64,000 bases of DNA, taken from positions 124,001-188,000 of the forward strand of contig JAHDQJ010000010.1 in NCBI GenBank assembly GCA_018433865.1, read 5' to 3'. A model generated the notes under the pieces. That model saw only the letters and a program-made list of their open reading frames with translations. It was not told where the DNA came from and did not search any database. The stretch is from Spirochaetales bacterium. GTDB lineage: Bacteria > Spirochaetota > Spirochaetia > Sphaerochaetales > Sphaerochaetaceae. Below, piece by piece: positions 2,138 through 48,153 of the stretch; position 1 is the first letter of the stretch; the number at the start of each line of letters is the position of its first letter. Made by a program: the position numbers and the translations under genes.

Positions 2138-3298
2138 ATGACTTCGAGGGAAAGGCTACTTGCTGCGTTCGATCACCAGAAGACTGACAGGCTTCCTGTC
2201 ACGTCCCACCACATCATGCCGTACTTTCTGAAAAAGTACATGAACAATATCTCCCGGAAGGAATTCTTCGACCGGATGGGCATGGACCCGATTCACTGGG
2301 ACATCCCCGTGAAGCCTGATCCGGCCAGGAAGGAGTACTTCGCTCCCGGTCAGGGAGAGCTCGATTTCCTGCAGATCTACAAGATATTCTCCGACAGTTG
2401 GAGAATCGAATCCCATCCGGTCGACCACCCCGACTTCATCACCCGCAGGGATACCATCATCACTCCGAAGGGGAACCTGAGTGCGGTCATCCAGGGAAAC
2501 GATTATACCGAATGGGTTGCCGAGTATCCGCTGAAGGAGAAGAAGGATATCGAGTTGCTCGCTGAGTTCCAGCCCTATCCCATCTGTGATGTCGATTCCG
2601 TGAACAGGCAGGTCGAGGCCCTTGGGGATTGGGGTATCATGCGCGGATTCATCATCCCGAACGATATCTACGGCCAGCCCGGCTGCTGGCAGGATTTCTG
2701 TTGCATGCGGGGAACCGAGCAGGCGATCATGGATACGTATGATGATCCTGAGTGGGTCCACGAGGCCCTGAAGGTCTTCCAGGCGAGAAAGATCCACTAT
2801 GCCAAGAGTCTGAAAGGCTCCAAGCTGGATATCACGGAGTTGGGGGGAGGAGATGCCTCCACCACGATCATCAGCCCGAAGATCTTCGAAGAGTTCGTTG
2901 CCCCGTATGATGAGCCGATCATCCGTGCCGCACAGGATGTCGGGGGAGTCAGGGTCACCTATCATACCTGCGGCGGGATGATGCCGATCCTCGAGATGAT
3001 CGCCGACATGCGTCCGGTGGCGATGGAGACTTTCACACCTCCGGGGCTTGGCGGGGACACGGATCTTGCCGAGGCGAAACGGAGGATCGGAGATCGGGTC
3101 TGCATGATCGGAGGGTTCGATCAGGGCCAGTACTTCTCAGGATGTACTCCCGAGGAGACACGAAAGCAGGTTCGCAGATGCTTCGAGGAAGCTGGTGAGG
3201 GCGGCGGTTACATCATTGCTCCTTCGGATCACTTCTTCGACGCCGATCCTGCATTGGTCAAGGCATTCGTCGATGAAGCGAAGGCTTGCCGGTATTGA
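2138..3298 (+). CDS. Uroporphyrinogen decarboxylase (URO-D) family protein, HxC type
   Basis: This 386-residue protein belongs to the URO-D/MtaA superfamily of TIM barrels. It starts MTSRERLLAAF, typical of the non-haem branch, and carries H276-T-C278-G, which matches the first two ligands of the His-X-Cys zinc motif of corrinoid-dependent methyltransferases such as MtaA. Its place after a sugar ABC transporter makes haem synthesis unlikely; a role in transferring or removing a methyl group, or another lyase reaction on the imported compound, is inference. The start at 2138 has a clear GAGGAGA site and excludes an upstream extension that would overlap the ATPase. A strong terminator follows. 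Confidence 0.88.
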   Translation: MTSRERLLAAFDHQKTDRLPVTSHHIMPYFLKKYMNNISRKEFFDRMGMDPIHWDIPVKPDPARKEYFAPGQGELDFLQIYKIFSDSWRIESHPVDHPDFITRRDTIITPKGNLSAVIQGNDYTEWVAEYPLKEKKDIELLAEFQPYPICDVDSVNRQVEALGDWGIMRGFIIPNDIYGQPGCWQDFCCMRGTEQAIMDTYDDPEWVHEALKVFQARKIHYAKSLKGSKLDITELGGGDASTTIISPKIFEEFVAPYDEPIIRAAQDVGGVRVTYHTCGGMMPILEMIADMRPVAMETFTPPGLGGDTDLAEAKRRIGDRVCMIGGFDQGQYFSGCTPEETRKQVRRCFEEAGEGGGYIIAPSDHFFDADPALVKAFVDEAKACRY

Positions 3299-18087: not shown

Positions 18088-18179
18088 TTTTCCTGCGGGG
18101 ATACACATCGAATGCGATCGGTGGTGCATGGGCTTCGGTGCATGTACCGCAGACGCATGCTTCAGAGGATGATCATGCT

Positions 18180-19340
18180 ATGAAGAAGACAATGACTTCA
18201 CGGGAACGGGTCCTGACAACGCTGAGCTTGCAGGAACCGGACAGGGTGCCGATAGATCTCGGACAGGCGGGGGGAGACGGCATCACCATCGGGGCATACA
18301 GGAACCTGCTCAACTACCTCGGCCTGGAAGATCGTGAGATCAGGGTGGAGGACAGGTCCAGCCAGACTGCCTTGGTCGATGAGGACGTCCTGCAACTGCT
18401 GAAGGTGGATTTCCGTCGTCTGGATTTGGGACGGCCCGATGGTTGGAAAGAGACCGATTTGGGTGATGATTCTTATCGGGACGAGTTCGGATTGGTGAAA
18501 CGAAAGCCTGAAGGAGGTCTCTACTACGACCTGGTCAGCTCCCCCATGGCCGATATCGACACGCTCGAGGGCATCGATGCATTCCCTTGGCCCGACCCGG
18601 CGAACCCCGGACGCTTCCGTGGTCTTCGCGAACGGGCGAGGAAGCTGCATGAAGAGACCGACTATGCCGTGGTGCTCCAGATAAACAGCTCCTTCTTCCT
18701 CCGTTGTTGCGAGCTGCGTGGGTGGGAAAACTTCTACATGGACCTCGCCATCAATGAAGAGTTCGCAGTCGCACTGATGAATCGGTATCTTGACTATAAG
18801 CTGAAGATCGCAGAGATTGCCCTGGGGGAAGTCGGTGAGCATATCGACATCGTCCTGGTCAGCACCGACGACCTGGGCATGACCGACCGGACCATCATCT
18901 CTCCCGACATGTACCGGGATCTGGTAAAACCCATCCAGAAGCGGATGTTCGATTTCTTCAGGGAACATACCCATGCCAAGCGGTTCTATCACACCGACGG
19001 AGCTGTGTATCCCCTGATAGAAGATTTCATCGAGATCGGGGCGGAGGTGTTGAATCCCATCCAGGTCTCGACCGCGGGAATGGGCGATACCGCGAAGATG
19101 AAACGGGATTTCGGTGACCGTCTCGCATTCTGGGGAGCCATCGATACCCACCGCGTCCTCCCGTACGGAACTCCCGAGGATGTGCGTGAGGAGGTGCGAC
19201 GGCGCATCGGCGATCTTGGGCCGGGCGGCGGCTATGTACTGTGCTCGGTGCACAACATCCAACCCGATGTACCTCCCGAGAACATGATGGCCATGTTCGA
19301 AAGTGCCTACGAATACGGGGCTTATCCCTTGAAGCTCTAG
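18180..19340 (+). CDS. URO-D family protein, HxD type
   Basis: This 386-residue TIM-barrel protein of the URO-D/MtaA superfamily starts with MTSRERVLTTLSLQEPDRVPIDLG. Where methyltransferases have His-X-Cys, it has H271-T-D273-G, so one thiol zinc ligand is replaced by Asp. It closes the second TRAP operon. A decarboxylase, lyase or methyltransferase role on the imported compound is possible; haem synthesis is unlikely. It has the same length as the 2138 protein. Confidence 0.87.
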   Translation: MKKTMTSRERVLTTLSLQEPDRVPIDLGQAGGDGITIGAYRNLLNYLGLEDREIRVEDRSSQTALVDEDVLQLLKVDFRRLDLGRPDGWKETDLGDDSYRDEFGLVKRKPEGGLYYDLVSSPMADIDTLEGIDAFPWPDPANPGRFRGLRERARKLHEETDYAVVLQINSSFFLRCCELRGWENFYMDLAINEEFAVALMNRYLDYKLKIAEIALGEVGEHIDIVLVSTDDLGMTDRTIISPDMYRDLVKPIQKRMFDFFREHTHAKRFYHTDGAVYPLIEDFIEIGAEVLNPIQVSTAGMGDTAKMKRDFGDRLAFWGAIDTHRVLPYGTPEDVREEVRRRIGDLGPGGGYVLCSVHNIQPDVPPENMMAMFESAYEYGAYPLKL

Positions 19341-24589: not shown

Positions 24590-25666
24590 TTGCTGGACAA
24601 GGATACGGTACTCAGGGCAGTCCGATTCGATCATCCCACGACCATTCCGGTGATTTTCCATATCAACATGGCATGCTGGGATTCCTATGACCGCACCTGG
24701 CTTGCCTCCCTGGTCGACGCGCACCCGGCACTCTTTCCCCATGGCGTTCCCCTGTTCGTGCGATCAGGAGATCCGACCCCGTATCCCGAGTGGTGCAGGG
24801 CGAACGGGCGGTGGACCGACCCCTGGGGCTGTGTCTGGGAAACGCGCACCGGTGGCTTCATCGGTACCGTGGTACAGCATCCGATCAAGGACCTTTCGGA
24901 AATCGCTGCCTACCGGCCGCCCGATCCCGAGCATACCACCCACTGGTACCCCGTCACCTGGAAGAAGGGTGTCTCGCCGACCGGCGGTTCGATCGGATTC
25001 TTCGACTTCCTCCGTTCGGGAGAGATCGGACACGGGCACACCTTCCTCAAGCTCATCGACATCCTCGGGTATGAGAAGGCTCTCTACGCGATGGAGGACG
25101 AGGAGCCGCCACTCGCTGTACTTTTGGACATGATCGGGAAGTTCAACCTCGGTTTGGTACAGCGGTTCATCAGCTACGCCGATGTCGAGTGGCTCGGCTA
25201 TGCGGAGGACCTGGGCATGCAAGTCGGTCCGATGCTCTCTCCGGCGATGTTCCGCAAGTGGATCCTTCCGGTCTACCGCCGGATCATGGAACCGGCCGAG
25301 CAGCATGGGTGCGTGATCCACATGCATTCGGATGGTGACATCCGTGCACTCGCCGATGATTTGCTGACACTCCCGGTAGATGTCTTCAACATCCAGGACA
25401 CTGCCAACACGATCGGGTGGTTGGCACGGCACATGAAGGGAAAGGTGGCGATCGATCTCGACATCGATCGGATGCACATCACCCAGAAAGAGGATCCCCG
25501 TGCCGTGCGCGCATACCTTACGCACGTGATGCGCACGATGTACGATCGTGCAGGAGGGTTGATCCTCACCTATGGACTCTACCCCGGAACGCCGCAGGCC
25601 AATATTGAAACGATGATGGATTTCCTGGAAGATGTGGCCACAGGAGGCAAGATGTGGACCAACTGA
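24590..25666 (+). CDS. URO-D family protein, HxD type
   Basis: This 358-residue URO-D/MtaA superfamily protein begins MLDKDTVLRAVRFDHPTTIPV and has H246-S-D248-G in the position of the methyltransferase His-X-Cys motif. The start is a TTG at 24590 with AGGGGAG six bases upstream. It is the first gene of a seven-gene plus-strand run that includes a ROK repressor and amino-sugar enzymes. Its reaction is unknown. Its 3' end overlaps the ROK gene by 13 bases. Confidence 0.85.
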   Translation: MLDKDTVLRAVRFDHPTTIPVIFHINMACWDSYDRTWLASLVDAHPALFPHGVPLFVRSGDPTPYPEWCRANGRWTDPWGCVWETRTGGFIGTVVQHPIKDLSEIAAYRPPDPEHTTHWYPVTWKKGVSPTGGSIGFFDFLRSGEIGHGHTFLKLIDILGYEKALYAMEDEEPPLAVLLDMIGKFNLGLVQRFISYADVEWLGYAEDLGMQVGPMLSPAMFRKWILPVYRRIMEPAEQHGCVIHMHSDGDIRALADDLLTLPVDVFNIQDTANTIGWLARHMKGKVAIDLDIDRMHITQKEDPRAVRAYLTHVMRTMYDRAGGLILTYGLYPGTPQANIETMMDFLEDVATGGKMWTN

Positions 25667-32349: not shown

Positions 32350-33446
32350 GTGTCGAGCCAGGCGAAGGCATCCTCCTGCATGTCCTGATGGAACTGATGC
32401 GTTCCCTCATAATGGGCGAACCTGAGATGATCGGGTTCGCCCTCTTCGTCGTAGCGACGACGCAGCTGCGCCTCGGCAGCAGCTACCTCGTCCTGGTCGA
32501 ACAGTTCGTCGCTGGTGCAGTTGCAGATCATCAGCGGGTGCGGGGCAGCCAGGGCGGCGATCCCGGAAAAGTCGAGTGAACGGCCGATCCCCGGGACAAA
32601 GGCCATCCAGGTATGATCGATCGCATGGGTGCGGATCATGTCGCCCCACGTGGTCATGAAGCCCGCGGCGACCGCAGCGGCGATTCCCCCGGTGGAAGCG
32701 CTGAGGTAGATGCTGCGCAAGCCCCCGAGGCTGAGACCGCAGACGCCGATCCGTCCGGGATCGACCGCACTGTTGCTTCTCAGGATATCCAGCGCGATGC
32801 GGTCCTCGGCAACGGTGAGTCCGCTCCATGTCAGTCCTGCCGCATACAGCGCCTTGGCGATCAGGTGCTCCATCTGCCGGGCGCACCGGTTGTAGGCATC
32901 GATCGAAGAGGCCGTATCATCCAAGCCGGGCGGCAATGCATCTTCGAACAGGTTCTTCACGACCTGAGGCGGCAGGTCGCTGAAGCGCAGTCTCCTGCTT
33001 TCGAAGGGGAAGACATCGTGTACCAGCACCGCGTAACCGCGCAGGGCAAGGTCGTTCGCCCAAGCACGTCCGCCGTAGTACTGCTGTTGGTAGGGGAGGA
33101 TCTGTGGGGGTGTCTCCCCTTCGATGTGCACGAGTTTCTGTTTGCCGAAGAATTTCTGTCCCCCATGATCGTGCAGCGCGAGGACTGCGGGCAATCTGCC
33201 TGCGTGGTGAAGCGGCATGAGGAGGTACGCTTCGGTGGCGTTCCCGAACGGAAGGTTCCAGGAAAGTTTCTCGATCGAGAGGGCTCCTTCCGTCCTTTTC
33301 CACAACACGGAAACCTCAGGAGGAGAAAAATCGGGTGCAGCCAGCGCCTCAAGGAAGCGATCGCGTGCTGCCGAGGCAGTGAGGGGGACCTTGGGGAGGT
33401 CCGACAGGTAGGCGCTGAGATCACCGAGCATCAGGGGAGTATTCAT
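32340..33446 (-). CDS. Alpha/beta hydrolase (acetyl-esterase/dienelactone hydrolase-like)
   Basis: This 368-residue alpha/beta hydrolase has the oxyanion-region LALHDHGGQKFFGK, the nucleophile elbow GVCGLSLGG (Ser in G-L-S-L-G), CTSDELFDQDE with the candidate acid and a late HYEGTHQFH carrying the catalytic His. The size and long N-terminal lid resemble abhydrolase_7 or acetyl-xylan-esterase-like enzymes. A deacylation step on the imported glycoside is likely. The ATG at 33446 overlaps the stop of the upstream URO-D gene as ATGA; a longer upstream frame lies inside that gene and is rejected. Confidence 0.88.
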   Translation of the reverse strand: MNTPLMLGDLSAYLSDLPKVPLTASAARDRFLEALAAPDFSPPEVSVLWKRTEGALSIEKLSWNLPFGNATEAYLLMPLHHAGRLPAVLALHDHGGQKFFGKQKLVHIEGETPPQILPYQQQYYGGRAWANDLALRGYAVLVHDVFPFESRRLRFSDLPPQVVKNLFEDALPPGLDDTASSIDAYNRCARQMEHLIAKALYAAGLTWSGLTVAEDRIALDILRSNSAVDPGRIGVCGLSLGGLRSIYLSASTGGIAAAVAAGFMTTWGDMIRTHAIDHTWMAFVPGIGRSLDFSGIAALAAPHPLMICNCTSDELFDQDEVAAAEAQLRRRYDEEGEPDHLRFAHYEGTHQFHQDMQEDAFAWLDTHL

Positions 33447-34489
33447 CGTGTCACCACCGTGATGCCGCGCATGTCCCACGCGGCCTTGAGCATCGCAAAG
33501 TATTTTTCCCGCGGCATGTAGTCGGGGACGGAGTTCCCTGTACCGAGTGCGAAAGAACCCTCTTCGGCACTCAGTTCCAACATGGCGCGCGAGCGGTTGT
33601 AAATCGCCTGTTCCGATTCCATGATGAGATAGTTCACGTCGATGCCTCCGAGGATCGCGATCTCGGTGTGGTAGCGCCTGTAGGCCTCTTCGACGGGGAG
33701 GATGGAATCTTCGTAGGAGTGCTTTCCTTCGTAGTTCTCGGTGATCCAATCAAAGACGGGGTAGACGTTCCCGCAGGAATGGATGAGCGCCGGCTTGCCA
33801 TGGCGGTGGATCGCCGCCGCTATCTTGCGGTGCCAGGGGATGAGCCACCGTTCCATCTGGGCAGGGGAGAGGAGGGTCTGGGTATTGAATCCCCAATCGT
33901 CGTTGGACAGGCATGCTCCCACGCGATCGAAGGAGGCGACCTCATCATAATAGCGCACCAGGCGCGAGCCGACCTCTTCGAAGAGTCTGTCGACGAGGTC
34001 CTCCTCGTCGACCATCAGGTAGCAGAGGTTCTCGTAGCCGGTGAGGGAGATGACGACTTCCTCGACCCCTCCCGGGCCGCTGGGGATGAGTTGCATCCCG
34101 TCGGGGAGGTGGGCGGCCACCTGCTCGAGATAGCGGTAGTCACCCGCATCGTAGTCGGGCCATGGGTAGCGTTCGAAGGAGTCCCATGAGTCGATGCATG
34201 AACCTTCGTTGAGCGAGTAGGTCCTCTTGTCTTCGTGGTGTTCCCGGAGCTCGGGGAAGTAGTGGTGCTTGCCCGGCAACAGGGTGGCGTGATCGTATCC
34301 GAGGCGGTGGAACGCAAGTGCCATCTTCATCCGCTTATGGAACTCTTCGTCGCCGCGAGGGACCTCGAAGTCACGGACCACCGAATCGTAGACCGTGTCG
34401 TTCATGTAGAACTCGTAGAGAACCGGGCGGTCCGGCTTTTCACGTCCGAGAACCTTCAGCAGTTGGGAGAAATCACTGTGGATCGGCAT
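33443..34489 (-). CDS. URO-D family protein, HxC type
   Basis: This 348-residue URO-D/MtaA-type TIM-barrel protein has H237-S-C239-G, the His-X-Cys zinc motif start of corrinoid-dependent methyltransferases, and an N-terminus FSQLLKVLGREKPDRPVLYEFY. It is the first gene of a two-gene minus-strand unit with the alpha/beta hydrolase, with which it overlaps by four bases. Start ATG 34489 has GAGCGCAGG-type purines upstream. It is the fourth URO-D family protein of the window. Confidence 0.87.
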   Translation of the reverse strand: MPIHSDFSQLLKVLGREKPDRPVLYEFYMNDTVYDSVVRDFEVPRGDEEFHKRMKMALAFHRLGYDHATLLPGKHHYFPELREHHEDKRTYSLNEGSCIDSWDSFERYPWPDYDAGDYRYLEQVAAHLPDGMQLIPSGPGGVEEVVISLTGYENLCYLMVDEEDLVDRLFEEVGSRLVRYYDEVASFDRVGACLSNDDWGFNTQTLLSPAQMERWLIPWHRKIAAAIHRHGKPALIHSCGNVYPVFDWITENYEGKHSYEDSILPVEEAYRRYHTEIAILGGIDVNYLIMESEQAIYNRSRAMLELSAEEGSFALGTGNSVPDYMPREKYFAMLKAAWDMRGITVVTR

Positions 34490-36585: not shown

Positions 36586-37252
36586 GGTCACGACTCCTGA
36601 AAGGATACGGATGCATCCAAGTATACCAGATGGTGGGGGAGAAGGGAGGAAAAATGTGGGGCACCCTGAGCCGCAAAAACAGAGTAACCGGATACAGCTC
36701 TGTGCCGTGTTATCCGGTTGATAGGATGCGTGTCATGGGATTCATCATATAGGTAACCTGAGCTGCACTTCACTCAAGAAGTGGGTTATGGATCAATATC
36801 ATATCTTGGAAGGAGGATTCCAAAGTATGAACGTTCATAAAAACATGGTTATGAGCGTATGGAAATAGTTGGGGTTATCGCTAGTTCCAAGGTCGGTTCA
36901 CAAGTTTGTTAAATATGTATTATGTGATTATATATTAATCATTTAGAATATTTTCTTCGTTTCTATTATACAGTATGTGAGAAATACTTTAGGGTATGCG
37001 ACCAATTTGTGATGCAGACTGATCTATTGAGTATGGTGAGAAAGATTATACATTTTCTTCATTGTATGTGCTATGAGTCGCAATATTTCACTATAGATCA
37101 GGAGTTCTCTATGTTTAATTAATAAAACATACATAAATGATTAAAATGGAGAAAAAAATCTTGTAATACTGAAAACTGTATGATATTGTAATTATAACGT
37201 TCAAATATATCATAAAAGATTGGATGAAACGTAAGAGAATGAGGGGGAAATT
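36586..37252. other. AT-rich intergenic region with repeats and no clear gene
   Basis: This 667-base region is far more AT-rich than its neighbours. It holds an extended -10 (TGGTATACT on the minus strand, 36620-36628) for the PTS gene, a 9-bp inverted repeat AACCGGATA/TATCCGGTT (36686-36694 and 36711-36719), a TTGGAA/TTCCAA hairpin (36806-36823), a 14-bp palindrome (36826-36839) and a 13-codon open frame at 36827 preceded by AGGAGG. The promoter of the downstream ABC operon must lie here; TTGTAA-17-TATTGT at 37161-37189 is the best but weak candidate. Confidence 0.5.
36826..36839. promoter_or_regulatory. 14-bp palindrome, candidate DeoR-family operator
   Basis: TATGAACGTTCATA is a perfect palindrome upstream of the ABC/MttB/UlaG operon. 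The half-site TATGAAC(A/G)T recurs at 43568 before the kinase gene and, inverted, at 48168 in the promoter of the DeoR gene. Confidence 0.45.
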
Positions 37253-38344
37253 ATGAACAAGAAGCTTCTGATGGTCATGGTGCTGCTCTTTGCTTCTGTT
37301 GCTTTGGTGAGTGCCGCAGGACAGAAGGATGCAGGCAGTGTATCGGATCGTGGAACCGTTGAAGTGTTCGGCGGAGAGTTTTCTGTCTCCGGTGGACCGT
37401 ATACGGTAGCGCTCTCGAACTATTCCGTGGGAAACTCCTGGCGGATGCAGATGGTAGCGGAGTTTGAGAATGCTTGTGAAGAGCTCAAGGCTCTCGGAGT
37501 TGTCGACAAGTACTATGTCACCAACTCGAATGGTGACATCGCCAAGCAGATCAGCGATGTCCGAGACCTGATCACCAAGGGTGTCGACATCATAGCGATC
37601 ACGTGTGCCTCCGGATCGGCTCTGACCGATGTCGTTGACCAAGCGATGGAAGAGGGTATCAAGGTTGTCTCATTTGACAACTACCTTGTCTACGATGATG
37701 GTCAGGTACATGAGACTGCCCGTACCGGCGTCAAACAGGAAGAGTTTGGAAGGATCTGGGCCGAGTGGCTTGTCGAACAGCTCAATGGCAAGGGCGACAT
37801 CATCCTCCTGCAGGGCATGGTCGGTGCTTCCGGTGGGTTGCAGCGCTGGGCTGGTGCCGAGGAAGTCTTCAAGAACTATCCCGGCATCAAGATCCTTGGT
37901 GAAGGCTATGGGGATTGGGACTATGCGAAGGGAAAGATCATCGCAGAGCAACTCATCGCGGCACACGGCAGCAATATCGACGGTGTGTGGTCGCAAGGCG
38001 GAGCGATGACGCAGGGTGCGATTGAGGCTTTCAACGAGCGCGGACTCAAGATGGTTCCGATGACTGGCGAGGCGAACAACGGTATGCTGAAGGCTTGGGT
38101 CGCGAATCGTGACAAGGGTTTCACCAGCGTCGCTCCCGACTCTCCCTCCTACGTGAGCGTCGAAGCTCTCAAGCTTGGCATGAAGGCTGCCGAGGGTATG
38201 GATGTCGCCGGATATCATGCGTTCCCGTTGCAGGTCGTGACCGAGGAAAATCTTGACCAGTATGTGAAGCCCAATCTTCCCGACAGTTTCTGGGTGTTCA
38301 CCAACCTCACTGACGATCAGGTTGCAGAACTCTTCAGCCGCTGA
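37253..38344 (+). CDS. Ribose-type ABC transporter substrate-binding protein
   Basis: This 363-residue periplasmic binding protein of the RbsB type (Peripla_BP_4) has a Sec signal peptide (MNKKLLMVMVLLFASVALVSAAG) without a lipobox cysteine, followed by QKDA. Family landmarks are the long NGDIAKQISDVRDLITKGVDIIAIT region, FDNYLVYDD and GVWSQGGAMTQGAIEAF. It begins the importer of this locus. GAGGGGGAAA lies before its ATG and a hairpin follows its stop. Confidence 0.95.
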   Translation: MNKKLLMVMVLLFASVALVSAAGQKDAGSVSDRGTVEVFGGEFSVSGGPYTVALSNYSVGNSWRMQMVAEFENACEELKALGVVDKYYVTNSNGDIAKQISDVRDLITKGVDIIAITCASGSALTDVVDQAMEEGIKVVSFDNYLVYDDGQVHETARTGVKQEEFGRIWAEWLVEQLNGKGDIILLQGMVGASGGLQRWAGAEEVFKNYPGIKILGEGYGDWDYAKGKIIAEQLIAAHGSNIDGVWSQGGAMTQGAIEAFNERGLKMVPMTGEANNGMLKAWVANRDKGFTSVAPDSPSYVSVEALKLGMKAAEGMDVAGYHAFPLQVVTEENLDQYVKPNLPDSFWVFTNLTDDQVAELFSR

Positions 38345-38453: not shown

Positions 38454-39950
38454 ATGAACGCGGATACTATCCTGGACATGCAGAAGATCAGCAAGCACTT
38501 CGGTGGAGTCATCGCGCTGCATGAGGTTGATTTTTCCTGTAGGGTCAATGAGATCCACTGTATCGCAGGAGAGAACGGGGCGGGCAAGAGCACACTGCTG
38601 AAGATCATCTCCGGGTTGCTCAGTGCCGATCATGGACAGATGTTCCTCCATGGCAAAGAGGTGCAATTCAAAAGTCCGCACGAAGCGCAGAAACACGGGA
38701 TCGCCATGGTGTATCAGGAGTTGACCCTGATTCCCGAACTCACCGTGGAGGAGAATATCTTCCTGAACATCGAACCGAAGAACAGGTTCTCCATCATCGA
38801 CAGGAAGAAAGTTTCGGCTCAACTAGCGCATCTGATGCAGGAATATGATATCGAATTGGCTCCCAAGGCTGTGGTGAAGACACTGAGCATCGCCCAACAG
38901 CAGATGACCGAGATACTGAAGATCCTGGTGCGCAATCCCAACATCATCATCCTGGATGAGCCCACGTCGGCATTGGCACAGGGCGAGGTCGAGAAACTGT
39001 TCCATATCATGCGGACGATGAAGGAGCGGGGCAAGACACTGCTGTTCATCTCCCACCGTCTGGATGAGATCTTCAGCATCACCGATCGGGTGACCGTGCT
39101 CAAGGACAGTCGCTTGGTCGGAACCTACGAGACCAAAGATCTGGATCATGGCAAACTGATCCGTGCCATGGTCGGCAGGTCCCTCACCAGCATATTTCCG
39201 AAGCCGAACGAGATCGACATCGAGCGGACGGTATTCGCGGTCGAATCGTTCAGCGTCGGCAATAAGGTCAAGGATGTCAGTTTTTCCGTTTATCATGGGG
39301 AGGTGGTCGGTATCGCAGGATTGCAAGGGCATGGGCAGACTGAGCTGCTCAACGGCATAGCAGCCTTGATGTCCCATACGGTTGGCAAGATATTCATCAA
39401 TGGGGAACAGGTCGTGGCCAACACTCCTTGGGATGCGATACGGGCAGGTATTGCCTTGGTCCCGGTAGACAGGAAGACTGAGGGCCTGTTGCTCGAGCTC
39501 TCCGTGAAAGACAACCTGGCACTTGCCAGCCTTGACAAGCGGAAGAACAGCCTCTTCCTTGATCGGAAGGCAGAGCGGTCCTTCGCCAAGGAGATGGTCG
39601 GTCGATTGTCGATCAAGTGTGCGGGTGAACAGGTGGCCGTGAAGAATCTCTCCGGGGGAAACCAGCAAAAGGTGGTCCTTGGCAAGGAATTGGGTATCGA
39701 ACCCAAGGTATTGCTTTTCAATGAGCCGACTCGGGGCATCGATATCGAGGCGAAAAGCGAGTTCTATGCGATCATGCGCAAGCTCACTTCCGAAGGTGTG
39801 GGCATCATCGTGGTTTCCAGCGATCTCATGGAAGTGATCGGGATCTGCGACCGGGTAATCGTCCTCTACGAGGGAAAGGTAAGTGGCATATTGGCCAAGG
39901 AAGAAATGTCTGAGGAATCGATCATGCGTTGTGCAGTCGGATTGGGTTGA
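38454..39950 (+). CDS. Ribose-type ABC transporter ATPase (tandem NBD)
   Basis: This 498-residue tandem-domain ATPase has Walker A GENGAGKST at about residues 39-47, IILDEPTSALAQGE in the first Walker B, and signature LSGGNQQKV at about residue 399 with VLLFNEPTRGIDIE after it. The second Walker B thus has Asn where Asp is usual (FNEP in place of IDEP), in the domain that carries the intact signature. It energises the two permeases encoded next. Confidence 0.95.
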   Translation: MNADTILDMQKISKHFGGVIALHEVDFSCRVNEIHCIAGENGAGKSTLLKIISGLLSADHGQMFLHGKEVQFKSPHEAQKHGIAMVYQELTLIPELTVEENIFLNIEPKNRFSIIDRKKVSAQLAHLMQEYDIELAPKAVVKTLSIAQQQMTEILKILVRNPNIIILDEPTSALAQGEVEKLFHIMRTMKERGKTLLFISHRLDEIFSITDRVTVLKDSRLVGTYETKDLDHGKLIRAMVGRSLTSIFPKPNEIDIERTVFAVESFSVGNKVKDVSFSVYHGEVVGIAGLQGHGQTELLNGIAALMSHTVGKIFINGEQVVANTPWDAIRAGIALVPVDRKTEGLLLELSVKDNLALASLDKRKNSLFLDRKAERSFAKEMVGRLSIKCAGEQVAVKNLSGGNQQKVVLGKELGIEPKVLLFNEPTRGIDIEAKSEFYAIMRKLTSEGVGIIVVSSDLMEVIGICDRVIVLYEGKVSGILAKEEMSEESIMRCAVGLG

Positions 39951-39962
39951 GGTGTATCGAAG

Positions 39963-40922
39963 ATGAACCAGAGAATCAAACGTGTGAACATACAGCAGAT
40001 GATGCAGCGAAACACGCATGTCATGTACATGTACCTGTTCTTGCTGGTCATGGTCATCGTGTCGGGGGTCCTCGATCCCGACTTCCTCTCGGTACGGAAC
40101 ATCAACAATCTCATCTTGAGCTCGTTGCCCATATTCATCGTTTCCTGTGCCCAGATGATCATATTGCTGATGGGGGACATCGATCTCTCCCTGGGCAGCA
40201 TCATCGGTCTGGTCAATGTGGTCTTCGTGATGCTCATGCGTCCTGACCAGCCGTTCGGGTATGTGACGGCCCTCCTCGTGGCGCTGGCCGTAGGGACGCT
40301 CTGTGGGTTTGTCAATGGATTCCTCATCACCAAATTGCGTCTTCCGTCGGTTATCGTGACGATCGCGACTTCGAACGTATTCGGCGGATTGGCGCTCTTC
40401 GCATGCCCGGTACCGGGAGGAAAGGTGCACAATCTGTTCTCGCGATTTGTCATGGGCCGGCAAGGATTTCCCTTCCCGATCGTCCTGATGGTGATCACGC
40501 TCGTCACCATCTACCTGCTTACGAGCCGTTCCACGTTCGGGATGAAAGTGCGGGCGGTAGGAGGCAATCAATTCGCTGCCTATACCACGGGCATCTCAAT
40601 CGCGCGGATCAAGCTTACTGCCTACTGCCTGGCAGGATTCCTCGCGAGTCTCTCTGCCATCTTCCTGACTTCTCAAATGCGCTGTTCCGACGCGACGGTG
40701 GGAAACTCGTTCACGGTGAATTCACTCACGGTAGCTGTGGTCGGCGGAACCGCGCTCTCGGGATCTGTCGGGGGAGTCTCCGGTGTGATCGGAGGCTCGT
40801 TCATCATCATGATCATCAACAATATCCTGAACCTGATCAACGTCTCCTCGTTCTATCAGTATGTGATCCAGGGTCTGGTTCTGATTTTCGCGCTTGCCAT
40901 CAGTTCGAAGAGGAAGAAATGA
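39963..40922 (+). CDS. Ribose-type ABC transporter permease
   Basis: This 319-residue RbsC-family membrane protein has LLMGDIDLSLGSIIGLVNVVF, FGMKVRAVGGNQFAAYTTGI and a glycine-rich GGTALSGSVGGVSGVIGG loop. It is one of two different permeases in this operon and probably forms a heterodimer with the 40999 product. GAGGTG precedes the ATG. Confidence 0.94.
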   Translation: MNQRIKRVNIQQMMQRNTHVMYMYLFLLVMVIVSGVLDPDFLSVRNINNLILSSLPIFIVSCAQMIILLMGDIDLSLGSIIGLVNVVFVMLMRPDQPFGYVTALLVALAVGTLCGFVNGFLITKLRLPSVIVTIATSNVFGGLALFACPVPGGKVHNLFSRFVMGRQGFPFPIVLMVITLVTIYLLTSRSTFGMKVRAVGGNQFAAYTTGISIARIKLTAYCLAGFLASLSAIFLTSQMRCSDATVGNSFTVNSLTVAVVGGTALSGSVGGVSGVIGGSFIIMIINNILNLINVSSFYQYVIQGLVLIFALAISSKRKK

Positions 40923-40998: not shown

Positions 40999-41967
40999 AT
41001 GGAACTGAAACATAGGAACATGCTGGTGCAAAAAATCTCAGGGAGCAACTACCTGGTGGGCATCGTGTTGTTGCTCATGCTCGTAGGGGCACAGATCATC
41101 ATTCCCGGTTTCCTCGGGATCAGGAATGTCGGCAATATCCTGAAGGTTGCCTCATTCATCGGAATCGCCGCGATAGGACAGACCTTGGCGATCCTGATCG
41201 GTGGCATCGACATGTCGATCTCCAATGTCATCACGTTGGTCAATATCGTGACCGCGCAGATGATGGTCGGGGACAATGCAAACATTCCGCTCACGATGAT
41301 CGTCATCCTCTGTATCGGTGTGGTGGTGGGCTGTATCAACGCATTCGGCATCACCTACTTCAAGATACCGCCCATCGTCATGACGATCGGCATGGGTACG
41401 GTTCTCCAGGGAATTGCGTTGCTCTACAGCAAAGGGGCACCGAAAGGGAATGCCGCACCGCTGCTGCGCCACCTCGTGAACGAACCGAAGGTATTCGGAT
41501 TCACCACATGGGTGGTCGTTTTTTGGGTCGTGCTTGCGGCCTTGGTGATCGTGGTGCTCAGGATGACTGCCTTCGGCCGAAGAGTGTTTGCCATCGGAAA
41601 CAACCGGACGACTGCACGGTTCTCAGGTATCAGGATCAACCAGATCATCTTCACCTGCTATATCCTCTCGGGTGTATTCGCGGCCATCACCGGAGTGATC
41701 CTTACCGGGTACACGGGAACCGCATCAGCGGAGGCTGGCGCACAATACTCCATGAACTCCATCGTGGCAGTCGTGGTGGGCGGTACTGCAATCACCGGAG
41801 GACGTGGCGGGTACGGAGGTACGATTCTGGGTGTCATCATCCTGACCATCCTCAACAACATCCTCACCGTGATGAACATTCCGATATCGGGGGTGATGAT
41901 CGCACAAGGCCTCATCATCATCGTGATGGTCTATGTGTACGGCAAGGAGAAGGCGAAGACTTGGTGA
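40999..41967 (+). CDS. Ribose-type ABC transporter permease
   Basis: This 322-residue RbsC-family membrane protein has ILIGGIDMSISNVITLVNIV, FGRRVFAIGNNRTTARFSGI and GGTAITGGRGGYGGTILGV. Several in-frame starts exist upstream, overlapping the previous permease; ATG 40999 was chosen because GGGAAGG lies eight bases before it and the first helix then follows after a normal N-terminus. The methyltransferase homologue follows. Confidence 0.93.
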   Translation: MELKHRNMLVQKISGSNYLVGIVLLLMLVGAQIIIPGFLGIRNVGNILKVASFIGIAAIGQTLAILIGGIDMSISNVITLVNIVTAQMMVGDNANIPLTMIVILCIGVVVGCINAFGITYFKIPPIVMTIGMGTVLQGIALLYSKGAPKGNAAPLLRHLVNEPKVFGFTTWVVVFWVVLAALVIVVLRMTAFGRRVFAIGNNRTTARFSGIRINQIIFTCYILSGVFAAITGVILTGYTGTASAEAGAQYSMNSIVAVVVGGTAITGGRGGYGGTILGVIILTILNNILTVMNIPISGVMIAQGLIIIVMVYVYGKEKAKTW

Positions 41968-42010: not shown

Positions 42011-43522
42011 ATGAGAGAGGGATTGGGACACGATTTCCCGTATGTCGATATTATCAGTGACCGCTCGGTCGAGCGGGTGATCAAGGGAAGTCTCTCTGTC
42101 CTTGCCGATACAGGAGTAGTGGTGCAGGACAAGCAGATGCAACAGACGCTCGTTGCATACGGATGCCGTGTGGACACGTCGACCGATAGGGTCCGCATGG
42201 ACGAAGCGGTCGTGACTCGTGCGCTTTCGAGCGCTCCGGGCAGTTTCGAGGGGAAGGCCATGGATCCTTCCGAATCGATCCGTTTCAGTCCCGGAGAGAC
42301 TACCTATTTCATCAATGGCTGCGGCAAGGCGCTCGTCGATGTCGATACCTGGGAGATGCATGATCCGACTCGTGAAGAATTTTACCGTCACATCAGGGTG
42401 ATCGATGCGCTTCCCCACATCGATATCCAGAACTGCTTTCCCTTCTTCGGATTCGCAAAGGTTCCCGAATGCATGCGCCTGATCGAATCGGCGGCGGCGA
42501 AGTTCCGGGTATCGGGAAAGGTTCAGATCGAGGGGACCCTCTTCGACAACTACCGGTTCACTTGTGCGATGGCCGATCTCTTCAAGGTCGATCTGTTCCA
42601 GATCGTGAACTCTGCGGCTCCCTTGACCTATTATGCGGAGACTGCGGATCAGATGCGGACTTATACCGAGCACAACCTCCCGTTCCATTTCGCGACCGGA
42701 GTGACACGGGGAATGACCGGTCCGATGACTTCACTCGGTTCGGTGATCCTCAACAATGCGGAGGCTCTGGCTGGCATCGTGATGTCACAGGCCTTGCAGG
42801 AAGGTTCCCGCGTGTGGGTGAACAGCATGATGCTCACCCCCAACATGAGCAACGGAATGCCGGCATTCGGTGATATCGGAAACAGCATCACCGATATGGC
42901 ATTCAACCAAGTGTGGAGACACTTGGACATTCCGTGTTGGTCGAATGCAGCGTCCTGGACCAGTTCCAAGATGATCGACTACCAGGCAGGATATGAACTG
43001 ACCAGCGCTTTGGTGCTCCAGATTCTCAGCGGAGCAACCGCGATTTCCTTTCAAGGCGGGTTGCATGACGAGATCGGCGTAAGTACGGTGAAGGCGATCA
43101 TCGACGATGACGTGGTTGCTTCGCTCAAGCGGCTGATGCGTGGTTTGAACGACTCTGAGGAGGGTTTGGCAGTCGATCTCATCAATGAGATCGGACCATT
43201 GCCCGGCTCCTATCTCGATACCGACTTGACACTCGAGCACTGGCGGGATGAGTGTCATATCCCGACCGTCGGCATCAGGGATCCGTATCCTCAGTGGGTG
43301 GAAGGGAACAAACGCGGTTCTGTCGTCGAACGTGCGAAAGAGAGGATGGAACAGCTTCTTGCGGACCATAAGGAGACTGTACTCACTGAGTCCCAAGAGC
43401 AGGAGCTTGAATATATCCTCGAGGAAGCCAGGACCTACTATCGGAAAAAGGGACTCATTTCGGACGAGGAGTGGCGGATCTATCAGGAGGATCTGGCGAG
43501 CCCGGGTTATCCGTTCTCGTGA
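42011..43522 (+). CDS. MttB-family (trimethylamine methyltransferase-like) corrinoid methyltransferase homologue
   Basis: This 503-residue protein belongs to the MttB superfamily, with LFKVDLFQIVNSAAPLTYYAE, PFHFATGVTRGMTGPMTSLGSVILNNAEALAG and a late KAIIDDDVVASLKRLMRGL as landmarks. There is no in-frame TAG, so it is the non-pyrrolysine type, which in characterised members demethylates quaternary amines such as glycine betaine or carnitine and passes the methyl group to a corrinoid protein. No corrinoid protein or reactivase is in the window. AGGAGG lies seven bases before ATG 42011. The gene belongs to the ABC operon. Confidence 0.88.
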   Translation: MREGLGHDFPYVDIISDRSVERVIKGSLSVLADTGVVVQDKQMQQTLVAYGCRVDTSTDRVRMDEAVVTRALSSAPGSFEGKAMDPSESIRFSPGETTYFINGCGKALVDVDTWEMHDPTREEFYRHIRVIDALPHIDIQNCFPFFGFAKVPECMRLIESAAAKFRVSGKVQIEGTLFDNYRFTCAMADLFKVDLFQIVNSAAPLTYYAETADQMRTYTEHNLPFHFATGVTRGMTGPMTSLGSVILNNAEALAGIVMSQALQEGSRVWVNSMMLTPNMSNGMPAFGDIGNSITDMAFNQVWRHLDIPCWSNAASWTSSKMIDYQAGYELTSALVLQILSGATAISFQGGLHDEIGVSTVKAIIDDDVVASLKRLMRGLNDSEEGLAVDLINEIGPLPGSYLDTDLTLEHWRDECHIPTVGIRDPYPQWVEGNKRGSVVERAKERMEQLLADHKETVLTESQEQELEYILEEARTYYRKKGLISDEEWRIYQEDLASPGYPFS

Positions 43523-43567: not shown

Positions 43568-43642
43568 TATGAACATAATAGTGTAATAGTAATTAAAAAA
43601 ATCATAAAAACATTGACAAATAGTGCATATACTTAGTATGCT
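43568..43642 (+). promoter_or_regulatory. Promoter of the kinase/UlaG unit with upstream TATGAACAT site
   Basis: TTGACA (43613-43618) and TATGCT (43637-43642) are 18 bases apart, giving the kinase gene its own promoter within a short AT-rich gap. TATGAACATAATA (43568-43580) lies 32 bases upstream of the -35 box and matches half of the palindrome at 36826. Confidence 0.55.
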
Positions 43643-43659: not shown

Positions 43660-45144
43660 ATGATAGTTGTCTTGGATATCGGAACCTCCAACATCCGCGC
43701 CGCACTGCTTGACGGGACTGCACAGGTCCTGCACCTGGGACGCGTCAAGTATTCATTGGAGATCGCTAGTTCGGGACACGCGGAGATGGACATGAGGCTG
43801 TTCGATGATGCCTTGCATGCTGTCCTCGCTTCCGTTGCTGCTTACGCTCGCACGCATGCGATCACGGTGTGCGGCATCTCCTTGACCAGCCAACGATCCT
43901 CGGTCATCCCGGTGGATGCAGATGGCCATGCACTGTACAATGCCCTGATGTGGCAGGATACGCGATCCGCAGGTATCTGTGAGGAATTCGCACCGTACCG
44001 GGAAGAGATCTACCGGCTAACCGGAGTCAGGCTCTCTCCGGTGTTCTCCGCTCCGAAGATGGTGTATCTCAAGCGGTTCATGCCGGACATCCATGAGAAG
44101 AGTCACAAATTGATCGGATTCGCTGAGTATACGATCCATGCGCTGTGTGGAGTATTCGCGACGGACACATCGTTTGCAAGCAGGACCGCGCTGTTCGACA
44201 TCAATGATCTTTCCTGGTCCGATCGGTTGCTGGACCTGTTCGGATTGGATAGGGGCAAGCTCTGTCCTGTCGTCCCGGTCGGTTCTGTGATCGCATCCAC
44301 CGTCGGGTGGGTCCGGGATTTATTCGGTTATCCGATTCCCGTCCTCTCGGCAGGTGGCGACCAACAGTGCGCAGCACTTGGGAACGGATGCATCCATCCT
44401 GGCGATATCATGGCGAACCTGGGAACCGGGGCCTATGTCTTGGCTTTGACAGACCATGTCAAGAGTGATCGGCGGATGCGACTGAGCATCAACGTTTCCG
44501 CGATCCACGGCATGTGGATCTACGAGGGTGCGGTGTTGAGTGCGGGAAGGACGCTCGATTGGGTGAATGATACCTTCTTTGCCGATCCGACAGAGGATCA
44601 TCCCTACCAACGGTTCACCGCCGCTTCACGGAACTCACCGGAGGGAGCGAACGGATTGCGATTCGACATCCACTTCGCAGGGAAGGGTACCCCTGACTGG
44701 GATCCAAAGCGACGTGGACGCATCGACAACCTGAGCTTTTCCCATACGAAGGACGACATTGCACGCGCAGTCATGGAGGGCATCGCCTACGCAGTGGCCG
44801 AATGCGTCGAGGTGATTGAGGAGACCAACGCTTCGTGCGCAGCGGTACTCCACGTCTCCGGCGGATTGAGCAAGGATGCACTGCAGGACGACATACTGTC
44901 TGCGGTGCTGCACAAGGAGGTCGTCTGTGCCGAAGGAATCGAAGCGACGATCCTCGGAGCTTGGATCAGTTCGGCTGCGATGCTCGGGATCCACGACTCG
45001 GTAGGTGCCGCGTATGCTGCGGCCTCCGGTTCCATAACCGAGCTACGCTACCGTGCAAGCGAGGATACCATGCATACATACCGTACTATCTTGCAGAAGA
45101 CGAATGAACACGGAGATAAAGGAGAGAGAGATGTCCAAGGTTGA
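43660..45144 (+). CDS. FGGY-family carbohydrate kinase
   Basis: This 494-residue kinase has the N-terminal phosphate loop [15 protein letters not shown], the FGGY-1 landmarks [17 protein letters not shown] and [33 protein letters not shown] and a C-terminal HVSGGLSKD. Family members phosphorylate sugars such as xylulose, rhamnulose or ribulose. Directly before a UlaG lactonase it would supply the phosphorylated sugar or lactone that PTS uptake supplies in the enterobacterial ascorbate pathway. The end overlaps the UlaG gene by 14 bases. Confidence 0.92.
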
Positions 45145-46195
45145 TGAGATTACCCGAGAATCGTGGGTGTTGGATACATTCCCTGAGTGGGGAACTTGGT
45201 TGAACGAAGAGATTGAGCAGGAAGTGGTCAAGGATAACACCGTCGCGATGTGGTGGCTCGGGTGTGTCGGCTTATGGGTCAAGACTCCCCAGGACTGTAA
45301 CATCAGCATCGATTTCTGGTGTGGAAAAGGCAAGCGGACAAAGCATGTGAAGAACATGGTGGCAGGTCATCAGATGGCAAACATGTGCGGTTGCCGCGAG
45401 TTGCAGCCAAACCTCCGTGCCTCTGTCTTCGTGATGGATCCCTTCGCGGTGAAGAAGGTGGATGCGGTGCTTGCGACCCATTATCACCAGGACCACATGG
45501 ATCCCAACTTCGCCTCTGCGGTGTTGCACAACATCCGGGAGAAAGTTCCGTTCATCGGCCCGAAGAAGTCGGTGGAGACCTGGATCAAGTGGGGAGTACC
45601 TGCTGACCGTTGCATCACCGTGAAGCCAGGGGATTCGATCAAGATCAAGGATATGGAGATCATAGCGGTCGATTCCTTCGACCGTACCTGTCTGGTCACG
45701 ACGGATGGATACCAGGATATCCGCGATACCTGCCCGAACGATATGGATGACAAAGCAGTCAACTATATCATCAAGACCCCAGGAGGAAACATCTACCACA
45801 GCGGGGACAGCCATTACTCGATCTATTTCGCCAAGCATGGCAAGGACTATGAAATCGATGTCGCGCTCGGATCCTATGGGGAGAATCCGGTCGGCATCGC
45901 TGACAAGATGACCAGCGTCGATATCTTGAGGATGGCTGAGGCACTGCGCACGAAGGTGGTCATTCCCGTACACTACGATGTGTGGACCAACTTCATGGCC
46001 GATCTCAATGAGATCAAGGTCCTCTGGGATATGAAGAAGGACCGGCTCGGATACCAGTTCCATCCGTTCTTCTGGGAAGTCGGCGGGAAATATGTCTATC
46101 CGACAGACAAGGACAGGTTGTATTACCATCATGATCGTGGATTCCACGATTGCTTCGAGCATGAACCGAACACGCCGTTCCGTTCCATTCTCTGA
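45131..46195 (+). CDS. ulaG: L-ascorbate-6-phosphate lactonase (UlaG) homologue
   Basis: This 354-residue metallo-beta-lactamase-fold enzyme has the same length as E. coli UlaG and shares long stretches from its start ([20 protein letters not shown]) through [11 protein letters not shown] and [16 protein letters not shown] to [16 protein letters not shown] and [18 protein letters not shown]. The metal motif reads THYHQDHMD, the family HxHxDH. UlaG opens the lactone ring of L-ascorbate-6-phosphate to 3-keto-L-gulonate-6-phosphate. The downstream decarboxylase and epimerases (UlaD, E, F) are not in the window. Substrate identity with ascorbate is likely by similarity but not proven. Confidence 0.9.
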
Positions 46196-46210: not shown

Positions 46211-47248
46211 ATGAACCTGAAGAAGTTGCGCACCTATCCCCTGGACAAGTGTTATGCGATTGCAGAAATCTCCTACCGGGGCGAACCACATTTCGTGGTT
46301 GCCGCGGAGAAGGTGGACAAGTGTCTGTTGTTCACTAGGGAAGGCGACTTGGTTGATACGATCTGGGAGGGACCGGGAGGGACGATGTCGATCGTCCCCT
46401 TGCCATCCGACCCGGGATCATTTCTCGCTACGCAGCGGATGTATTCACCCAATGATGCCCAGGATGCCGTGATCGTCGCAGTATCTCCGAAAGAGGGCGG
46501 CGGATGGATGGTCAACGAGATCGCGAAGGTCCCCTTCGCCCACCGCTTTGACCTCCTCTCCACTCCTGCGGGTAAGTATCTGGTCGTCGCGACGATCAAG
46601 AGCGGACACTCACATACAGATGATTGGTCGACTCCGGGACAATTCCTCGTTGCACCGTTCGAAGGCTTGGATACAGACACTCCGTTGCGCTTCTCTGTGG
46701 TTATGGACGATGTGTTTCACAACCATGGCTATCTTCGCCGCCAAAGCGCTGATGGTGACTATGCTGTCATATCGGGAGACCAAGGGGTGTTTGCCATATA
46801 CCCGCCGAAAGAGGAATCCGGATCGTGGGTGGTCAAGCAACTGCTAGCAGAAGGGGTGAGCGATATGGCTTTCGTCGATTTCGATGGCGATGGCAAGGAG
46901 GAGATGATCACCATCTGTCCATTCCATGGTGATACGATCCGCATCTACAAGGATATCGGGAAGGATCTTCTTGAGCAAGTATGGGAATTACCGGAAAAAC
47001 GGGAATTCTCCCACTCCATCCATGCAGGAACAGTTGGTGGTAAACCGATCGCAATCATCGGGCACCGGAAGGGGTCGAGCAGGGACCTCATGGGCTTTTC
47101 CTACGACGGAACCGGGTATCGGATGGAAATCCTGGATAAGGATTGCGGAAGTACAAATATCTTGCTTCATGAGCAGGATGGCGCCTATACATTGGTCTCC
47201 ACAAACAGGGAAATCAATGAGATTGCATTCTATCGCTTGGAAGTCTGA
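46211..47248 (+). CDS. Cytoplasmic beta-propeller-like (FG-GAP/VCBS-type) protein of unknown function
   Basis: This 345-residue protein has no signal peptide or membrane segment. It has repeating beta-rich blocks and a calcium-loop-like DFDGDGKEEMIT near residue 222, the signature of FG-GAP/VCBS propeller blades, together with HNHGYLRR and HSIHAGTVGGKPIAIIGHRKG. It follows the UlaG gene by 15 bases, so it is probably part of the same pathway. It may be a sugar-lactone-binding or hydrolytic propeller, but no catalytic motif can be named. Confidence 0.7.
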   Translation: MNLKKLRTYPLDKCYAIAEISYRGEPHFVVAAEKVDKCLLFTREGDLVDTIWEGPGGTMSIVPLPSDPGSFLATQRMYSPNDAQDAVIVAVSPKEGGGWMVNEIAKVPFAHRFDLLSTPAGKYLVVATIKSGHSHTDDWSTPGQFLVAPFEGLDTDTPLRFSVVMDDVFHNHGYLRRQSADGDYAVISGDQGVFAIYPPKEESGSWVVKQLLAEGVSDMAFVDFDGDGKEEMITICPFHGDTIRIYKDIGKDLLEQVWELPEKREFSHSIHAGTVGGKPIAIIGHRKGSSRDLMGFSYDGTGYRMEILDKDCGSTNILLHEQDGAYTLVSTNREINEIAFYRLEV

Positions 47249-47349: not shown

Positions 47350-48153
47350 TCACGATTTTGATTTGCCTTCGGTGGTCTTGTCTGCAAGGATGACCGTGAT
47401 TCCCAAAGCCTTGAGCTTGCCTACCTCCTCCTCATTCGCCGAGGAGTCGGTGATGACGATATCGATATTTTTCATCGCTGTGGAGTTGAAGCTGTAGGTC
47501 TTGCCGAGCTTCGAACCGTCGGCGACCACTATCTTCAATCCTTTGCTTTGCTTGAGGAACTCTTCGTTGATCATGGTCTCAGGATAATAGGCGGTGGTGA
47601 CTCCCTCTTCTGCAGACAATCCGTTCACTCCCAATATGGTGATGTTGGAGAATATCTTGTTGATCAGGTTCGTGGCCAAAGGTCCGGCGAATGCCCGGTT
47701 CTTTGAATTGAACTCTCCCCCGGTACAGATCAGCTTGGCCGGTGTGTTGACGAGGATCTCGGAAGCGGGGGCGCTGTTGGTGACGATGGTGATCGGTTTG
47801 TCCTTGATTACCTTGATGACCTCCAACGTGGTAGTGCCCGCATTGATGAAAACCGTATCGTTGTCTTCGATATGGGTGGCTGCCACTTTGGCAATCATCT
47901 GCTTCTGCTGATGATTGAGGCTGTCCTTGCTGGAGAATTCGGGGGTTTGCTCAACCGTAGCGTTCAACCGTGCCCCACCATGAAAGCGGGTGACCAACCC
48001 TTTGGAAGCCATCAGCTCGAAGTCCCTGCGGATGGTGAGTTCCGAAAGTTCGAGTTGTTTGGCAACCTCCGTCACATACAATGTCGGTTCCTGCTCGAAC
48101 ATATGGAATATCCGTTGCTGCCGTTGTTTCACGATAGCTTTGCTTTGTTTCAT
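47350..48153 (-). CDS. DeoR/GlpR-family transcriptional regulator
   Basis: This 267-residue regulator has the DeoR-type N-terminal winged helix (about residues 10-70: VTEVAKQLELSELTIRRDFELMASKGLVTRFHGGA) and a C-terminal sugar-phosphate sensor domain with VFINAGTTTLEV and VVADGSKLGK. UlaR, the repressor of the ascorbate genes in E. coli, is from the same family. Its convergent position next to the UlaG unit and the TATGAAC motif in its own promoter suggest it controls this locus. Confidence 0.9.
   Translation of the reverse strand: MKQSKAIVKQRQQRIFHMFEQEPTLYVTEVAKQLELSELTIRRDFELMASKGLVTRFHGGARLNATVEQTPEFSSKDSLNHQQKQMIAKVAATHIEDNDTVFINAGTTTLEVIKVIKDKPITIVTNSAPASEILVNTPAKLICTGGEFNSKNRAFAGPLATNLINKIFSNITILGVNGLSAEEGVTTAYYPETMINEEFLKQSKGLKIVVADGSKLGKTYSFNSTAMKNIDIVITDSSANEEEVGKLKALGITVILADKTTEGKSKS

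Follow-up and report, generated by a model that had tools for sequence, protein, structure and literature searches.

The window, meaning the whole 64-kb stretch analysed (C33:124001-188000, C33 being its contig in a 2.91 Mb genome, G000, that is 99.9% complete), contains a gene for an MttB-family protein directly behind the genes of a sugar importer. The sequence-only reading had described this protein as a non-pyrrolysine MttB homologue without a corrinoid partner, and had suggested a new substrate class or a different reaction. The genes and sites concerned are listed below.

37253..38344 (+), periplasmic sugar-binding protein (Peripla_BP_4) of a ribose-type ABC importer; family scan
38454..39950 (+), double-ABC ATPase of the importer (AraG/RbsA/XylG type); family scan
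39963..40922 (+), importer permease 1; named by inspection and used as the permA query
40999..41967 (+), importer permease 2 (BPD_transp_2), 43 bp upstream of the MttB gene; family scan
42011..43522 (+), MttB-superfamily methyltransferase, non-pyrrolysine, 503 aa; PF06253, fold alignment and AF2 model
43613..43642 (+), promoter-like TTGACA-18-TATGCT between the MttB and FGGY genes; 10/12 matches, weak
43660..45144 (+), FGGY carbohydrate kinase; NCBIfam, best model XylB with 249.6 of 380
45128..46195 (+), UlaG, L-ascorbate-6-phosphate lactonase; NF008688, 637.8 bits, cut-off 306
46211..47248 (+), 345-aa protein; no Pfam or NCBIfam match
47350..48153 (-), DeoR-type regulator that faces the operon; named by inspection

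The MttB-family protein and its operon

The frame at 42011-43522 (+) runs through 503 codons without an internal stop and ends in TGA, and its product matches PF06253 over residues 7-467 with 203.8 bits against a cut-off of 25, which bears out the original description of a 503-residue MttB-family protein with no in-frame amber codon. Identity with MttB in the narrow sense is rejected, since the protein lacks the amber-encoded pyrrolysine of the trimethylamine methyltransferase described by TIGR02369 and scores 212.4 bits where the equivalog cut-off is 525. An AF2 model made from an 11-row alignment (pLDDT 77, pTM 0.82) has the MttB/MtgB fold of the superfamily; its best matches in the PDB are MtgB, 4YYC and MttB, with MtgB entry 9yce at the top (E 5e-29). 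By sequence and by fold, the window protein is a member of the MttB superfamily. It is the only one in its genome at E 0.001 or better, and as a lone query in a scan of genome contigs it found no relative. Counted on the printed fold alignment, Trp316 aligns with Pyl334 of MttB (residue number from the portion of PMC9842639 that was available), where MtgB has a leucine. In alignment A3, of 11 rows, tryptophan occupies this site only in the window protein and in L145, and Glu354 is invariant in all 11. Confidence in the model is below 50 at residues 232-237, 276-286, 316-328, 351-353 and 379-435, and the model therefore supports no active-site claim.

A tree of 32 rows was built, 19 of which are the window protein and relatives chosen by their similarity to it; in the tree, an in-frame stop shortens row L065 to 173 aa, and L058 sits on a long branch. 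A branch supported at 100/99 separates the 19 rows from the remainder, and MtgB lies outside them, beside a protein of G069. Within the clade the window protein pairs with L145, from a Bacillota MAG (100/100), to which it is about 50% identical over 360 residues. Judged by the tree, this is an uncharacterised MttB clade apart from MtgB, with MtpB, MtcB, MtyB and MthB known here by description only. The description as a non-pyrrolysine MttB homologue thus stands, with a place outside the MtgB group, and no orthologue with proven activity was found, the nearest solved structure being MtgB at 22% identity. In the phylum, 7/392 genomes, the present one included, have a match to the window protein at E 1e-45 or better. 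A separate scan yielded 11 loci, on contigs that carry the labels Bacillota, Actinomycetota, Spirochaetota, Chloroflexota (Anaerolineae), Aerophobetes, Desulfohalobiaceae and Thermoplasmata. The MttB on the Thermoplasmata-labelled contig (L149) is nearly identical to one of G145 on a spirochaete contig (L110), with branches of about 0.01, which reflects either a recent transfer or a binning error.

The binding protein, ATPase, two permeases and MttB gene follow one another with gaps of 109, 12, 76 and 43 bp, and the earlier placement of the gene within a sugar importer operon is upheld. The gap from the MttB gene to the FGGY gene is 137 bp and holds the promoter-like site, a weak signal given that the region yielded 19 such sites where shuffled sequence gave 11.0 on average (sd 3.7). 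Genes downstream of the site may have their own transcription start and, with this gap and site between them, the MttB gene may belong with the importer only. The FGGY kinase falls below the cut-off in all 13 NCBIfam models that it matched, and the AF2 model of the 345-aa protein consists mostly of beta strands at low confidence (pLDDT 49). On the opposite strand, an EIIC-GAT PTS permease gene (window 35224-36591, -) adjoins the importer operon.

A corrinoid module outside the window

Profile searches found no B12-binding or RACo match inside the 64-kb window, in line with the statement that it holds neither a corrinoid protein nor a RamA-type reactivase. The further conclusion that the protein lacks a corrinoid partner does not survive a search of the whole genome, which returned one MttB match, one RACo match and three B12-binding matches. 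One of these three is a stand-alone (MtgC/MtbC-type) corrinoid protein, encoded at C33:116331-116966; the RACo protein is encoded at C33:113129-114733, so both lie on the same contig, 7-11 kb left of the window start and 49-53 kb from the MttB gene. As the module lies just outside the window, the missing partner was a window-edge artefact, and the case illustrates that a partner may look absent when only 64 kb are read. A second B12-binding match, a frame of 1215 aa, is called MetH-like because it holds the only Pterin_bind match of the genome, and the third, a frame of 564 aa, is at a guess a radical-SAM protein.

The whole module (L007:8129-14984) lies 46-53 kb upstream of the MttB gene and 4-11 kb left of the window start. 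Its genes encode, in order, the RACo protein (domains Fer2, Raco_middle and RACo_C_ter), a PocR/AraC regulator, the corrinoid protein, a fusion of an MtaA/CmuA-like URO-D part with a thioredoxin domain, a CobW GTPase and a protein with a MetH-activation match. The corrinoid protein has B12-binding_2 and B12-binding domains and the His-ligand motif DLHDIG, and its best NCBIfam model is MtgC (222 of 370). The single TAG counted in the RACo match was considered as a case of readthrough and rejected: the match ends at C33:114736, 3 bases beyond the listed end of the gene (L007:9733), and the TAG is read as the gene's own stop. Genes for a PfkB-kinase and a mannitol-phosphate-dehydrogenase-like protein precede the module, and a 624-aa protein at L007:137-2011, at the head of a sugar operon, has no Pfam or NCBIfam match. 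The module is conserved in G002, G007 and G017, and is partly present on a short contig of G003.

Co-occurrence was counted over 101 genomes, i.e. the present one and 100 relatives. A genome was scored corrinoid-positive if its best match was an orthologue with 59-87% identity (25/101, own genome included), and weaker matches did not qualify, for example MetH or the G068 and G093 corrinoid proteins (47-48%); any MttB match made a genome MttB-positive, a wider definition than the clade of the window protein. The orthologue is present in 12/12 MttB-positive and 13/89 MttB-negative genomes (Fisher 4e-9, for related genomes). Two of the MttB matches, in G082 and G089, are partial (E 1e-3 and 6e-4), and without them the counts are 10/10 and 15/91 (Fisher 1.7e-7). 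The genomes are related, unequal in size and completeness, and not independent samples, although kinship weakens the p-values and hardly the pattern. The orthologue also occurs in MttB-free genomes, including the genus mates G001 and G002 (86-87% identical, no MttB match); MttB therefore seems to need the corrinoid protein and not the reverse. The same finding counts against the pairing proposed below, as the standing partner of the module is then not the window MttB.

Gene neighbourhoods of the relatives also link the two proteins. A corrinoid gene lies at the fetched locus of 11/19 relatives (7/11 of the closest and 4/8 of a second set, without L147, L148 and L155, which look like the contigs of G145, G137 and G126 that had been counted before) and at 4/9 more distant MttB loci. 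Five of the eight corrinoid-negative loci are on contigs shorter than 6 kb and another is a 2.8-kb stretch, leaving L116 (19 kb) and L152 (12.5 kb) as real misses at the sensitivity of the search. The best match to the window operon is L109, from G137 of another class, whose MttB is a 37% relative and which has the only ribose-type importer among the loci of the 19 relatives. There the corrinoid gene lies directly before the MttB gene and inside the importer operon, in the order short-chain dehydrogenase, binding protein, permease, ATPase, permease, corrinoid protein and MttB, followed by an ADP-ribosylglycohydrolase-family protein, a URO-D protein, a PfkB-like kinase (by inspection) and BtpA. 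This pairing in another class means that the placement of MttB with a ribose-type importer is not a one-off; the clade spans contigs labelled as seven phyla, one label being doubtful, and is twice placed in ribose-type import operons. The locus L110:6977-15585 (G145) groups a corrinoid gene with three genes for MttB and two for URO-D proteins, all side by side.

The preferred reading, given a probability of roughly 0.72, is that the window protein acts as a substrate:corrinoid-protein methyltransferase of an uncharacterised non-pyrrolysine MttB clade and uses the stand-alone corrinoid protein encoded in trans. The pairing is proposed because the genome encodes just one stand-alone corrinoid protein. 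A new substrate class or a different reaction, as originally suggested, may apply; co-occurrence with corrinoid proteins speaks for the usual transfer of a methyl group to cobalt. The unusual features are the clade, its setting among sugar-import genes and the proposed hub described below, and probably not the basic chemistry.

A proposed shared hub and the candidate substrates

The genome has about 15 (14-15) URO-D-superfamily matches, on contigs C31, C33, C36 and C39. Four are in the window and were not mentioned in the sequence-only reading.

2138..3298 (+), URO-D-superfamily protein behind a ribose-type ABC ATPase; start and ATPase assigned by inspection
18138..19340 (+), URO-D-superfamily protein with HxD motif; 39% homologue in an ascorbate-type cluster of G084
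24590..25666 (+), URO-D-superfamily protein with HxD motif; 74% homologue in the genus mate G002
33443..34489 (-), URO-D-superfamily protein with HxC motif; profile match

HxC or HxD motifs are present in the five URO-D proteins inspected for them. Several of the URO-D genes of this genome adjoin ribose-type or other sugar importers (by inspection), and in G002 the 74% homologue of the protein at 24590-25666 sits in the corrinoid module. Over the 101 genomes, the median number of URO-D matches is 11 in the 25 corrinoid-positive genomes and 0 in the 76 others (Mann-Whitney 1e-15); as the best 18 candidates per genome were scored, high counts are to be read as at least the number given. Exceptions are G075 (10), G088 (7), G068 (5) and G028 (4), with several URO-D matches and no orthologue, and G081 (1), with the orthologue and few. 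From these counts, the corrinoid module would appear to be a hub common to the window MttB and the many URO-D proteins of sugar-import operons, and a hub with mostly URO-D users plus, here, one MttB is the simplest reading. Counting against the preferred reading, the URO-D/thioredoxin protein of the module lacks the His of the usual HxC, having FVC in its place and CAAC in the thioredoxin part in 4/4 sequences, the present one included. The link between URO-D and corrinoid proteins suggests that many genes annotated as 'uroporphyrinogen decarboxylase family' in sugar operons may encode corrinoid demethylases, and the hub reading would give a large mis-named family a testable role.

If the preferred reading is right, the substrate would enter through the ribose-type ABC importer encoded directly before MttB, and MttB would then transfer a single methyl group to Co(I) in the MtgC/MtbC-type corrinoid protein encoded ~49 kb away. 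The RACo protein encoded near the corrinoid gene would keep the corrinoid protein reduced, and the demethylated product would pass into sugar-type catabolism, perhaps with the FGGY kinase and the UlaG lactonase as its next enzymes. No separate pterin-binding methyltransferase was found in the genome, its only Pterin_bind match being the MetH-like frame, and a thiol may therefore receive the methyl group by way of the URO-D/thioredoxin protein encoded next to the corrinoid gene.

Amines are the substrates of the six characterised MttB members named in the available part of PMC12155760, and a first guess at the present substrate is therefore a quaternary amine that carries an acidic or sugar-like moiety. 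The same six members are an argument for a plainer alternative, namely that the protein is an ordinary quaternary-amine demethylase, acting on glycine betaine, carnitine, phosphocholine or a similar compound, and lies beside the sugar operon by chance. This is rated as rather unlikely. At the L145 locus of its closest relative (L145:1138-2850), the MttB gene is followed by a BKACE gene and one for a cyclase-family hydrolase, hinting at a beta-keto acid product, and BKACE proteins are known in carnitine breakdown. Trp316, which L145 has in common with the window protein at the pyrrolysine site, could also bind a cation. Against this alternative, no betaine-type importer was seen in the operon, where the binding protein belongs to sugar families, and the window protein does not group with MtgB, the only one of the characterised non-pyrrolysine amine enzymes to be placed in the tree.

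A second and quite unlikely alternative is that MttB takes the O-methyl group off a methylated lactone resembling ascorbate, or off a related sugar acid, after which the FGGY kinase would phosphorylate the compound and UlaG would open its ring; for the MttB superfamily this would be a non-amine substrate. It draws on the next two enzyme genes, an FGGY kinase and a strong UlaG, and on the surroundings of UlaG elsewhere in the class, where orthologues lie near UlaD, UlaE and UlaF genes. Ten UlaG loci were compared, the window and L131-L139; of the 12 genomes in which UlaG has a match, G051 and G087 (33-34%) fall outside this set. UlaD is found at five (L133-L137) and a homologue of the 345-aa protein at the other five (window, L131, L132, L138, L139), never both, with absences at L137 and L139 being weak so near to contig ends. 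At L132 the gene for the 345-aa protein lies between UlaG and UlaE, and the protein may replace UlaD (3-keto-L-gulonate-6-phosphate decarboxylase). At L134 the UlaD, UlaE and UlaF genes pass NCBIfam cut-offs, UlaF only in broader 4-epimerase subfamilies, and with UlaD and UlaE over the cut-off the UlaG branch of the window therefore includes ascorbate-type clusters. The present genome has UlaE on contig C15 (TIGR00542, 370 bits, cut-off 272) together with an UlaF-like gene that passes the AraD subfamily NF006047 (346 of 257) and is below TIGR00760 and the other 4-epimerase models listed. Against this, UlaD was not found in the genome; the only PF00215 hit is PyrF-like and was rejected as UlaD, as it adjoins a PyrE-like frame (names by inspection).

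An ABC importer, FGGY kinase and UlaG are combined at three sister loci (L133, L134 and L136). In two of these, from G084 (L134/L172) and G063 (L136/L171), the gene immediately behind the second permease encodes a URO-D homologue, in the place held by MttB in the window operon, whereas the L133 cluster has no URO-D match. In G007 the FGGY-UlaG-345aa set is preceded by a sulfatase, another enzyme that removes a decoration. One reading is that these clusters import decorated ascorbate-like compounds from which a variable enzyme strips the decoration, URO-D or MttB a methyl and the sulfatase a sulfate. O-methylascorbic acid is named in the accessible parts of metabolomics papers and, on chemical grounds, 3-O-methyl ascorbate, a vinylogous ester, would donate its methyl group reasonably well even with no metal involved. 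Opposed to an ascorbate substrate are the amine activity of the six members in PMC12155760, the 137-bp gap and promoter-like site that separate MttB from the FGGY gene, and a difference in importers, since the G084 binding protein has its only match in the window to a different binding protein, at 23%. Furthermore, no UlaG homologue turned up in the loci of the 19 relatives. Among the matches listed in a search of titles and abstract openings, outside the bioRxiv collection and most subscription journals, no corrinoid system for methylated sugars and no MttB-sugar-importer, MttB-ascorbate or UlaG-FGGY-ascorbate system was described.

Both alternatives differ from the preferred reading in substrate only, and their odds therefore lie within its odds. 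A bolder proposal, considered a long shot, is that a branch of the MttB superfamily has left quaternary amines and O-demethylates imported sugar-like lactones, here methylated ascorbate, with a single corrinoid hub taking up methyl groups from it and from a dozen URO-D demethylases of other sugar-import operons; if true, it would amount to a general corrinoid route for stripping methyl groups from methylated sugars in anaerobes. That the protein works without a corrinoid protein and catalyses some other reaction, as first suggested, is highly improbable: its own operon does lack the corrinoid gene found at 11/19 loci of its relatives, but there is a module on the same contig and MttB matches are confined to genomes with the corrinoid orthologue (12/12).

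Comparison with known systems

The glycine betaine methyltransferase MtgB of Desulfitobacterium hafniense (PDB 2QNE, 9YCE) has the same fold as the window protein, with homology over residues 10-467, and likewise has no pyrrolysine; against the model it gives a TM of 0.74-0.79 at E 5e-29. It differs in being only 22% identical in the fold alignment, in lying outside the 19-row clade (100/99) and in having Leu for Trp at the pyrrolysine position. The E. coli-type ula pathway, compared here from general knowledge, is matched by a strong UlaG and, elsewhere in the genome, by UlaE and an UlaF-like gene, but differs in that no UlaD was found here and that a kinase, an ABC importer and MttB stand beside UlaG.

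Like the module described here, the type 1 mlp clusters of PMC10418091 combine a corrinoid protein, RACo and SCMT-like URO-D proteins without an H4folate methyltransferase; in the part of that paper available, they are defined by Mlp2 and Mlp3, as a rule with His-Cys-Cys zinc sites. The core module here has a single SCMT-like protein, fused to thioredoxin and with F-x-C in place of H-x-C, and identity with a type 1 mlp cluster is rejected on account of that single protein and its FVC motif. In G002 the homologue of the URO-D protein at 24590-25666 is adjacent to the module; the window copy has HxD and not His-Cys-Cys.

Two further systems were compared by description. The MthB/MthK phosphocholine system, as far as it is set out in the available text of PMC12155760, resembles the window in joining an MttB homologue to a kinase that acts on its substrate, as the FGGY kinase might here. 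MthK is related to serine kinases, whereas the window kinase is of the FGGY family, and the corrinoid and H4folate proteins of the MthB system are in the same gene cluster, whereas the putative corrinoid partner of the window MttB is encoded at a distance. A parallel in gene arrangement is Eubacterium limosum, where, according to the sections of PMC8604678 at hand, MtpB, MtcB and MtyB operate with MtqC, MtqA and RamQ; MtyB had to be coproduced with its corrinoid protein. For the H4folate methyltransferase MtqA, no counterpart was found in the present genome beyond the MetH-like frame with its Pterin_bind match. All three E. limosum substrate methyltransferases use MtqC, which is encoded in a separate cluster, and this shared partner makes a corrinoid protein in trans plausible for the window protein also. 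By analogy, the window protein most likely works as MtpB, MtcB and MtyB do, with its corrinoid partner supplied from elsewhere in the genome.
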